The notes beneath the pieces are model-generated. The model saw nothing but the letters and a program-made list of their open reading frames with translations. It was not told the DNA's origin and ran no database searches. From an uncultured Alphaproteobacteria bacterium (lineage in GTDB: Bacteria > Pseudomonadota > Alphaproteobacteria > RF32 > CAG-239), in assembly GCA_949493535.1 (NCBI GenBank), contig CASZWJ010000001.1, positions 266,850 to 330,849 on the forward strand: a DNA stretch of 64,000 nucleotides, written 5' to 3'. The translations under genes were made by a program, and so were the position numbers. Shown in pieces: positions 19,214 through 21,642 of the stretch; within the stretch, counting starts at the first letter, position 1, and each line of letters starts with the position of its first letter.

Positions 19214-20404
19214 ATGGCAAAAGAGAAATTTGAGCGGAGCAAGCCGCACTGCAACATTGGCACGATTGGTCACGTAGACCATGGTAAGACGACCTTGACG
19301 GCAGCAATCACAAAAGTATTGGCAGAAGAAGGCGGCGCAAGCTTCACAGCTTATGATCAGATTGATAAAGCGCCTGAAGAAAAAGCACGCGGTATCACCA
19401 TTTCTACCTCACACGTAGAATATGAAACCCCGAATCGTCACTATGCACACGTAGACTGCCCGGGCCACGCCGACTATGTTAAAAACATGATTACCGGTGC
19501 CGCTCAGATGGACGGCGGTATCTTGGTTGTATCTTCAGCCGACGGTCCGATGCCGCAAACTCGTGAACATATCTTGTTGGCTCGCCAAGTAGGCGTTCCT
19601 GCATTGGTTGTTTACATGAACAAAGTAGACCAGGTAGACGATCCTGAATTGTTGGACTTGGTAGAAATGGAAATCCGCGACCTGTTGAGCTCTTATGACT
19701 TCCCGGGCGATGAAATTCCGATTATCAAAGGTTCAGCTTTGGCAGTATTGGAAAACGGCGACAAAACGATCGGCCATGATTCCATTATTGAATTGATGAA
19801 AGCAGTAGACAGCTACATTCCGCAGCCGGAACGTCCGAAAGATCAGCCGTTCTTGATGCCGATTGAAGACGTATTCTCCATTTCCGGCCGTGGTACGGTA
19901 GTTACCGGCCGTGTCGAACGCGGTGTCTTGCATGTAGGTGATGATATTGAAATCGTAGGTATCAGACCGACCCAGAAAACGACCTGTACCGGTATCGAAA
20001 TGTTCCGCAAATTGTTGGACGAAGGCGAAGCCGGCGACAACATCGGTGTACTTTTGCGCGGTACGAAGAGAGAAGAAGTTGAACGCGGCCAGGTTTTGGC
20101 AGCACCGGGAACAATTACCCCGCATACAGACTTCACTTGCGAATGCTATATTCTGACGAAAGAAGAAGGCGGCCGTCATACACCGTTCTTCAGCAACTAT
20201 CGTCCTCAGTTCTATTTCCGTACGACAGACGTCACCGGTTCAATTGAACTTCCTGCCGGAACAGAAATGGTAATGCCTGGCGATAACATCACCATGACAG
20301 CAAAATTGATTCACCCGATTGCTATGAACGAAGGTCTTCGTTTCGCAATCCGTGAAGGTGGTCGTACTGTCGGTGCCGGCGTTGTTTCTAAAATCTTGAA
20401 ATAA
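19214..20404 (+). CDS. tuf: Elongation factor Tu
   Basis: 396-aa GTPase that delivers aminoacyl-tRNA. G1 is [16 protein letters not shown]3 [13 protein letters not shown]4 [10 protein letters not shown]; the effector-region RGITI threonine is present, and domains 2 and 3 are complete. TTTGGAG precedes the ATG. It is separated from fusA by 171 nt and from the following gene by over 500 nt, and is bracketed by two related palindromes, so its mRNA may be a separate unit. Confidence 0.98.
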
Positions 20405-20408
20405 TCCG

Positions 20409-20535
20409 AGAAGCTCGCAATAACGGCGACTAATCGTAAAAAATAGAAAAAGCTGAAAATTCATGTACGCTTATGTACACTAGGATTTTCAGCTTTTTCA
20501 TTTTTACTTCTATTCGCTCGTTCTATCGAGCTTCT
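20409..20535. repeat. Long imperfect palindrome after tuf
   Basis: Left arm 20409-20468, loop near 20469-20474, right arm to 20535, starting 4 nt after the tuf stop. Outer blocks are AGAAGCTCG/CGAGCTTCT, GCGA/TCGC and GTAAAAA/TTTTTAC. The inner block is GAAAAAGCTGAAAAT/ATTTTCAGCTTTTTC with GTAC on both sides of the loop. The inner part is followed by TTTTT and would work as an intrinsic terminator. The core AGCTGAAAATTCATGTAC is shared base for base with the fusA-tuf element; the outer arms differ. Confidence 0.87.
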
Positions 20536-20635: not shown

Positions 20636-20725
20636 ATGCGTATCGTTGCTCATTTAGAGCAAAAAAATGCAAAAGAGGCTTTTGCAGATAAGAACCTCTT
20701 TTTGTTATGGGATTTTATTGTCTGA
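20636..20725 (+). CDS. Possible 29-codon small ORF overlapping a hairpin
   Basis: ATG at 20636 after a purine-rich GAAAGAGAG, reading MRIVAHLEQKNAKEAF and on to TGA at 20723. Part of it lies inside a hairpin (AAAGAGG 20672-20678 pairing with CCTCTTT 20695-20701, followed by TTG). It could be a leader peptide, or chance. There is no family match and coding evidence is weak. Confidence 0.3.
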   Translation: MRIVAHLEQKNAKEAFADKNLFLLWDFIV

Positions 20726-20801: not shown

Positions 20802-20829
20802 TTGACTCTTGTTAATATTCTGTTAGCAT
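20802..20829 (+). promoter_or_regulatory. Putative promoter of the Cys-rich leader transcript
   Basis: TTGACT at 20802-20807, 16-bp spacer, TAGCAT at 20824-20829. A GACTC GANTC site (20804-20808) overlaps the -35 box. Start predicted near 20836, about 27 nt before the leader ATG. Confidence 0.55.
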
Positions 20830-20862
20830 TTACCCAGTTGTTTAATTGAGGGATAAGATTCC

Positions 20863-20937
20863 ATGTTTAACTGCTTTTTTAAGATATATGACTGTGATAC
20901 TTGTTCTTTATGCTGCAACTTAAAACGGCTCCATTAA
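20863..20937 (+). CDS. Candidate cysteine-rich leader peptide (24 aa)
   Basis: ATG at 20863 preceded by GAGGGA at a 9-nt spacing. The product is MFNCFFKIYDCDTCSLCC followed by NLKRLH: 24 residues with five cysteines at 4, 11, 14, 17 and 18 (a CxxCxxCC block). Its TAA stop lies in the loop of a strong intrinsic terminator. A promoter is predicted just upstream and an orphan gene begins 51 nt downstream. This is the usual architecture of a translated attenuator; cysteine starvation or metal/redox sensing are possible triggers, inferred only from composition. Confidence 0.5.
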   Translation: MFNCFFKIYDCDTCSLCCNLKRLH

Positions 20938-20954
20938 TTATGGAGCCTTTTTTT
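20927..20954 (+). terminator. Intrinsic terminator/attenuator overlapping the leader ORF stop
   Basis: Stem GGCTCCAT (20927-20934) with ATGGAGCC (20940-20947), 5-nt loop TAATT, then seven T. The leader TAA is at 20935-20937, so a ribosome reaching the stop would cover the left stem. Confidence 0.9.
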
Positions 20955-20987
20955 ATACCTTGGATAATAAAAACAACAGGAGAAGGT

Positions 20988-21305
20988 ATGGAAAATAATA
21001 AGAAACATATCGCGGCAATTTTTGAAGAACAAAAGGTTTTTGTAACCTTTAGCGGTGATTGCTATCGTTATGATAAACAGCAGGATGGTTTTCGCTGTTT
21101 TAAGATGAATAAGCTTTCTCAAAGAGATTTTTGGGAGAATTATCGTCAAACTCAGGTCGGGCAATCGAAAGAGATGATGATTTGGCGGCCTGTTGCGTAT
21201 GCGGAAGATGATGAGCCTCATGACTTGCAAAATCGTTCTGAAGGGGCTTCTTTCCAGAAGACCATTCTGAGGAAATTGCGGTCAAGAAATTTTGCTGAAA
21301 TTTAA
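20988..21305 (+). CDS. Orphan hypothetical protein between tuf and rpsJ
   Basis: 105-aa soluble protein starting MENNKKHIAAIFEEQKVF with an excellent AGGAGAAGG just upstream of the ATG; an upstream in-frame TTG would read through the attenuator and is unlikely. Features are the segment FSGDCYRYDKQQDGFRCF with two cysteines, an aromatic middle (FWENYRQ, MMIWRPVAY) and a basic tail (KTILRKLRSRNF). I do not recognise a family. It interrupts the usual tuf-rpsJ adjacency and lies directly behind the candidate attenuator, so expression may be conditional. Confidence 0.72.
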   Translation: MENNKKHIAAIFEEQKVFVTFSGDCYRYDKQQDGFRCFKMNKLSQRDFWENYRQTQVGQSKEMMIWRPVAYAEDDEPHDLQNRSEGASFQKTILRKLRSRNFAEI

Positions 21306-21642
21306 ATATATTTTTGTGGCTTTATGTAAAAAAATATAGTTTTTTGTGGAAAAATAGACTTGGATGTGAAAATTTTGTCAACCAGACTCAAACAGAGTCT
21401 GTGCAAGGCTTGCAGTGTTCAAAAAAGTTCAAAAATATGCATTTTTTTGCTTGCAAGTTAGACTCAATTATGTTACAAGAAGCCTGCGTTGATGAACGGA
21501 GAGGATGAATCTATCCTGAAATCACGATATAAAACATAAAGCAAACTGTTGCATATCAAGGGTTTGCAAAGTTTAACTTTTTAGATGGCAGGATTTGCCT
21601 AATCTAAAATTTTGCTGTCTAGTTATAGGAAAAAAATTAAAA
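21306..21642. promoter_or_regulatory. Leader region of the S10 operon with GANTC cluster
   Basis: 337 bp without a gene. GANTC sites start at 21385, 21395, 21461 and 21507. The first two form a perfect hairpin AGACTC-AAACA-GAGTCT (21384-21400). A direct repeat of GTTCAAAAA is at about 21418-21436. Just before rpsJ, TAGATGGCAGG can pair with either CCTAATCTA or CTGTCTA, giving mutually exclusive hairpins (about 21582-21625). This could be an autoregulatory leader like the L4-controlled S10 leader of E. coli, but no homology is claimed. Confidence 0.6.
21447..21474 (+). promoter_or_regulatory. Weak putative promoter of the S10 operon
   Basis: TTGCTT (21447-21452), 16-bp spacer and TATGTT (21469-21474); the spacer contains a GACTC GANTC site (21461-21465). 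Match is moderate only. Confidence 0.35.

Follow-up and report, generated by a model that had tools for sequence, protein, structure and literature searches.

The pyrBI attenuator of Escherichia coli reads UTP via the pausing of RNA polymerase and controls pyrimidine genes. Its leader open reading frame (ORF) extends to within or beyond an intrinsic terminator, whose hairpin cannot form when a ribosome follows the polymerase closely; an antiterminator is unnecessary (discussed in PMC4824070). The locus described here resembles pyrBI in both respects, the second being proposed from sequence alone, and differs from it in having a cysteine-rich leader and an orphan as its controlled gene. In the trp, his and ilv attenuators, as here, an intrinsic terminator and a gene are preceded by a short leader ORF in which one amino acid is enriched; in the present locus, however, no antiterminator was found, the stop codon lies inside or at the terminator and the gene downstream is an orphan.

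In Mycobacterium and other Actinobacteria, polycysteine upstream ORFs are proposed or shown to be cysteine-responsive (Canestrari 2020, cited in PMC13236596; PMC1262725), and they share with our locus a short ORF rich in cysteine codons that precedes a gene. They are leaderless, have runs of cysteine near the stop codon, precede genes of cysteine pathways and lack a conserved intrinsic terminator, while here the cysteines are spaced and mostly not consecutive, the ORF has a 5′ leader, a terminator overlaps the stop codon and the gene is an orphan. A cysteine-containing upstream ORF in Proteobacteria, CutF/CruR, controls the next gene through ribosome progress (PMC9973294), which is also what we propose here. 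CutF is an exported protein that carries a Sec signal as well as a proline-rich stall motif, and its effect is on translation initiation, via a stem-loop over the next ribosome site (PMC9973294). The leaders of the present locus differ in that, by eye, they have no Sec-type signal and no proline-rich C-terminal stall.

The window is a stretch of 64,000 nucleotides that forms part of a 1.72-Mb genome, labelled G000, of an uncultured alphaproteobacterium. Between tuf and rpsJ its + strand carries, in this order, a promoter-like site, a 24-codon ORF, a terminator and a 105-codon gene (Table 1). A sequence-only reading had taken these for a translation-controlled transcription attenuator, and its description of the parts was borne out. 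The TTGACT-N16-TAGCAT site and the leader ORF with five cysteines are present, and the TAA of the latter (20935–20937) falls, as claimed, within the loop TAATT (20935–20939) of an 8-bp stem (20927–20947) that is followed by U7. The strong ribosome site claimed for the gene at 20988 lies immediately 5′ of its ATG. A ribosome site for the leader is also present and is of moderate strength only; in G000, in distinction from most relatives, this site is predicted to pair with the 3′ part of the leader (probability 0.93).

Table 1. Features of the tuf–rpsJ interval in the window
Feature	Position	Strand	Basis and remarks
tuf	19214–20404		Upstream flank of the leader interval
Terminator hairpin of tuf itself	about 20448–20495		Sequence
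Promoter-like site: −35 TTGACT, 16 nt, −10 TAGCAT, extended TG	20802–20829	+	9 of 12 consensus positions
Leader ribosome site GAGGGA	20848–20853	+	Sequence; about 9–11 nt from ATG, moderate
Leader ORF, 24 codons, 5 Cys, MFNCFFKIYDCDTCSLCCNLKRLH	20863–20937	+	Sequence; Cys-containing short ORF in 12 further genomes
Intrinsic terminator, stem GGCTCCAT/ATGGAGCC, loop TAATT, U7	20927–20954	+	Predicted from sequence
Ribosome site of orphan gene, AGGAGAAGG	20978–20986	+	Sequence
Orphan gene, 105 aa	20988–21305	+	Homology; predicted fold of four strands and a helix, one invariant Cys
rpsJ	21643 onwards		Downstream flank of the leader interval

Homologues were searched for with the 105-aa protein as query and then with a profile of nine sequences. 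This gave 13 convincing gene copies including that of the window, one per genome and all within one gut Alphaproteobacteria family, of the “Azospirillum sp. CAG:239” kind, in which the record of that name has a homologue (L062). Across 385 genomes sampled from the entire class the profile found no further one, the gene is absent from the five other genomes of the same genus that were compared, and the phages, plasmids and viral contigs searched contained no relative of the protein. A scan of genome contigs with the single protein gave no match, while an alignment-based scan gave six near relatives of the genus g9 type. Marginal matches were rejected in G132, where the matched piece belongs to a longer protein that is unrelated, and in G139, G110 and G022, where there are stops within the matched frame.

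The order of TTGACTC promoter, short cysteine-containing ORF, intrinsic terminator and gene is shared by all 13 loci, which come from one family, mostly from metagenome assemblies, and are not independent, representing six or seven lineages at most. The association of the leader with the 105-aa gene proposed for the window is thus kept in the relatives as well. The loci lie in or near the tuf–rpsJ interval, with tuf upstream or rpsJ downstream where the contig extends; in G014 rpsJ is about 4 kb downstream, and the contigs of G159–G161 are too short for the flanks to be read.

Taken alone the match to the promoter consensus is not significant, as 4 promoter-like sites were found in 4 kb against 6.8 expected, and the argument is therefore built on comparison with relatives. 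TTGACTC stands at the matching place upstream in 13/13 homologous loci, with the leader ATG 57–70 nt past the start of the −35 box. Since TTGACTCTT is also found 5′ of other genes in the relatives, this promoter is general to the group rather than specific to the leader.

A promoter score within background and leader substitutions free of synonymous bias are what would be expected if the layout were fortuitous, that is, a random short ORF next to the terminator of an upstream transcript. The leader hairpin was ruled out as the tuf terminator because tuf carries a hairpin of its own. Repetition of the layout in all 13 loci, its conservation across several genera and the concentration of cysteine codons in one frame also argue against such an origin, which we find hardly credible; as judged from these sequences, the layout at 20802–21305 is not due to chance. 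When the 347-kb contig was scanned, 208 terminator-like hairpins yielded 25 candidate ORFs ending in or near one, among which the leader is the only ORF with five cysteines (the runner-up has three).

Cysteine codons number 5 in the ORF frame of the window's leader, and neither of the other two frames has any. When six representatives of separate lineages (G000, G014, G159, G160, G154 and G158) are pooled the figures are 21 against 0 and 1 (P about 1e-9 versus an even distribution over frames). Compared with dinucleotide shuffles, the open frame and the cysteine count together have a combined P of about 3e-5, with the window's copy excluded and the choice of start codon penalized fourfold. The long ORFs of the contig contain 1.1% cysteine. 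Four leaders (G013, G154, G157 and G159) have just two cysteines, and in G013 and G159 the enrichment alone is not significant. The share of UGU is 13/21 in the leaders versus 32% in long ORFs (P about 0.005), which is not used as evidence because the leaders are AT-rich.

Leader length is approximately 20–34 codons in 12 of the 13 loci, mostly giving 20–27 residues; examples are MFYHCSYFKNSKCFCKRCNS (G014), MFKIKQHFHCNVCNADFSRGFRDLKI (G159), MIRKTSFCSCSNCCENSFFLVDTERAS (G160), MFKQIRTTHSACNNECLLSIGSAASKE (G013) and MCKCRSSNTNCTEKCLKEALL (G158). In a DNA alignment built blind to the ORF the ATG falls in invariant columns; ribosome sites are weak in several relatives. Between close pairs the cysteine codons are mostly retained (4/5, 4/4, 2/2 and 2/3), while the non-cysteine codons change freely with no synonymous excess. 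This fits a leader that would need only its cysteine codons and an open frame, and the synonymous-excess test gives no demonstration of leader translation. A 2-nt indel between two g9 subgroups alters the C-terminal frame after the last cysteine, and the ORF still ends at the terminator.

With its promoter, short ORF and terminator the unit is complete, and might be a gene in its own right that encodes a small RNA of about 110–130 nt or a cysteine-rich micro-protein, whose cysteine content could mean metal binding, with the next gene expressed by leaky read-through. Such a product is difficult to reconcile with leader sequences that diverge freely between genera and leave non-cysteine residues unconserved, or with leader RNA whose folding, apart from the terminator, does not exceed chance in most lineages. 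G000 (z −2.7) and G162 (z −2.0) have the only leaders that fold better than shuffles, and we do not claim a structure common to the leaders. A hairpin AUGCUU/AAGCAU is common to genus g9 and its relative G085 only, and U-rich stretches occur in the leaders of G000 and G160 and are absent from that of G157. An Rfam search of the leaders gave nothing at gathering score, only sub-threshold matches including two to Phe_leader at E about 0.3. In addition, when the G156 leader was used as a nucleotide query, a search that distant copies could escape, no convincing leader turned up away from the orphan gene, and overall we consider an independent gene quite improbable. The idea of a mobile or multi-copy element was dropped on the same result.

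A terminator is predicted at the corresponding place in 13/13 loci. At least five unrelated stems occupy this one position (GGCTCCAT, AGCGGCCTCT, GACCTCTCT, AGAGACCTTAA and AAAGAGCCTCC), each followed by a T-rich tract, indicating that the function is conserved rather than the letters. The spacing from hairpin to gene start is 22–40 nt, too short for a promoter and a ribosome site, and so the orphan gene is, from its sequence context, most likely expressed by terminator read-through from the leader promoter. A separate promoter within 22 nt is possible only if it overlaps the GC-rich stem.

The position of the leader stop codon relative to this terminator varies. Measured from where the 5′ arm begins, its first base falls at −2 to +32 nt in 12 loci, so that stops are found just before the 5′ arm, in the loop, in the 3′ arm and past the U-tract. 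In the remaining arrangement, observed in G085 (L037), the leader stop TAG has become TGG and the frame stays open across the terminator as far as a TGA overlapping the gene's ATG (ATGA); this stop loss is a single base in a single assembly, and would make the variant a natural test case for occlusion. Given the stop positions in all loci, a ribosome that has reached its stop codon must already be over or beyond the hairpin.

Cysteine codons upstream of an intrinsic terminator, together with extra hairpins around these codons in some leaders, could also be read as a trp/his-type attenuator, in which stalling at the codons under scarce charged tRNA-Cys would form an antiterminator hairpin and turn the gene on. 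A classical antiterminator was rejected, as pairing of the 5′ arm with the upstream leader is not clearly above that of shuffles in any of 11 leaders. The stop is in or at the terminator rather than well upstream, and the downstream gene is not recognizable as biosynthetic. We regard this type as unlikely. In E. coli, termination fell from ~90% to <10% when the distance of a stop codon upstream of a terminator was shortened from 28 to 5 bp, an effect that was lost once translation was uncoupled (PMC4824070). Taken with the lack of 5′ arm pairing clearly above shuffles and the geometry of the stop codons, these data favor direct occlusion by a closely following ribosome.

We therefore think it probable, judging from the sequences compared, that the locus is a transcription attenuator in which the ribosome directly occludes the terminator, like pyrBI and not like trp. 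This upholds translation-controlled attenuation as first suggested, on comparative evidence, with leader, terminator and gene kept together in 13/13 homologous loci, cysteine codons concentrated in the ORF frame and no space for another promoter; it refines the suggestion in that the geometry points to occlusion of the terminator by the ribosome instead of alternating hairpins. We infer translation of the leader, termination at the hairpin and its relief by translation. RNA polymerase would start at the promoter-like site and a ribosome would load on the leader ORF. A ribosome close behind the polymerase would reach the end of the ORF and cover the 5′ arm, blocking the hairpin and allowing the orphan gene to be transcribed, while with no ribosome loaded, or with one delayed at the cysteine codons, the hairpin would fold and transcription would stop.

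In the occlusion scheme the cysteine codons would set the timing of the ribosome through charged tRNA-Cys. The last of them lie ~8–28 nt upstream of the hairpin and may be the point where ribosome progress depends on the signal, most simply charged tRNA-Cys. From the sequence pattern the cysteine codons are likely to be the sensor, and the identity of the signal (cysteine, metal or oxidant) is a guess. The least certain step is the polarity “more cysteine, more expression”. A ribosome held at the early cysteine codons would leave the hairpin free (off), and one held at the last cysteine codon could itself occlude it (on) in G000, where it would stand only ~11 nt from the hairpin, or in G014, where the distance is ~8 nt.

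The motifs CxxC, CxxxC and CxCxxCC found among the leaders, and the sensing of copper by CxxxC upstream ORFs elsewhere (CutF, PMC9973294), raise a different prospect, that the nascent peptide itself binds metal or reacts with oxidant and so alters ribosome progress and termination. The number of cysteines (2–5) and their spacing vary widely, to the extent that the two in G157 are 14 residues apart, the C-terminal sequence is unconserved and frameshifted between two subgroups, and a peptide of 20–27 residues would for the most part still lie within the ribosome tunnel. Read by eye, the leaders show no hydrophobic signal and no proline, and thus no signal sequence or proline-rich stall. We hold a peptide sensor to be very unlikely, and lean toward codon sensing, which is favored by the variable cysteine spacing and the free change of other residues.

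The gene at 20988 had been described as having no known family, and in agreement nothing above cut-off was found in Pfam or NCBIfam; PHROGs, PDB sequences and PDB folds likewise gave no relative of the 105-aa protein. Weak similarities to PipX-like folds (E about 0.8–0.9) were not accepted. A longer frame that starts with TTG at 20901 is not conserved. Invariant across the family are K, I, A, I, F, T, G and one Cys (C37 in G000). In the AlphaFold prediction residues 8–59 form a high-confidence core made up of four strands and one helix, with pLDDT about 93 across residues 11–50, and the tail is of low confidence, and a second member of the family is predicted to have the same order of structural elements. 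The orphan gene has no known link to cysteine, which counts against a cysteine-codon attenuator.

Several other features were observed in this region and in the relatives. The tuf–rpsJ interval varies among relatives (L005–L020, L034–L044), with different small genes in an otherwise conserved ribosomal region, including, besides several orphans, acyl-carrier-like and NAD synthase-like genes (the latter by eye). Between tuf and the leader the window has a second short ORF (MRIVAHLEQKNAKEAFADKNLFLLWDFIV, 20636–20725) with a purine-rich site 5′ of its ATG, and inside it a terminator-like hairpin AAAGAGG...CCTCTTT with a T-run (20671–20704). Upstream of the start of rpsJ, in the S10 operon, is an inverted repeat GACTC-AAACA-GAGTC (21385–21399) with a further GACTC at 21461–21465, and similar GACTC/GAGTC repeats lie 5′ of rpsJ in L012, L013, L015, L017, L019 and L020; a regulator site of the ribosomal-protein operon is possible. 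An intergenic stretch of ~150 nt in L003 (1470–1630), with inverted repeats and a terminator-like end and with no match in Rfam, directly precedes a nucleotidyltransferase-like gene (MSYKYKHGLTIMRAQPFHIGHKK..., by eye NMN adenylyltransferase-like) and is a possible regulatory leader.

To our knowledge the cysteine-responsive leaders described are those of Actinobacteria, without conserved intrinsic terminators, and we know of few occlusion-type attenuators. A conserved element that unites a cysteine leader with occlusion would supply test objects for the coupling of ribosome and polymerase, to which natural variants that shift the stop codon across the hairpin, or remove it, would add. That the locus is all of this at once, a cysteine-sensing occlusion attenuator without antiterminator that controls an undescribed small-protein family of one gut Alphaproteobacteria family, we put forward only tentatively and with more doubt than confidence. 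If true, the orphan gene would be on only when the cysteine supply lets the ribosome keep up with RNA polymerase, and this would offer an initial way of approaching an orphan protein that is conserved in uncultured gut bacteria.
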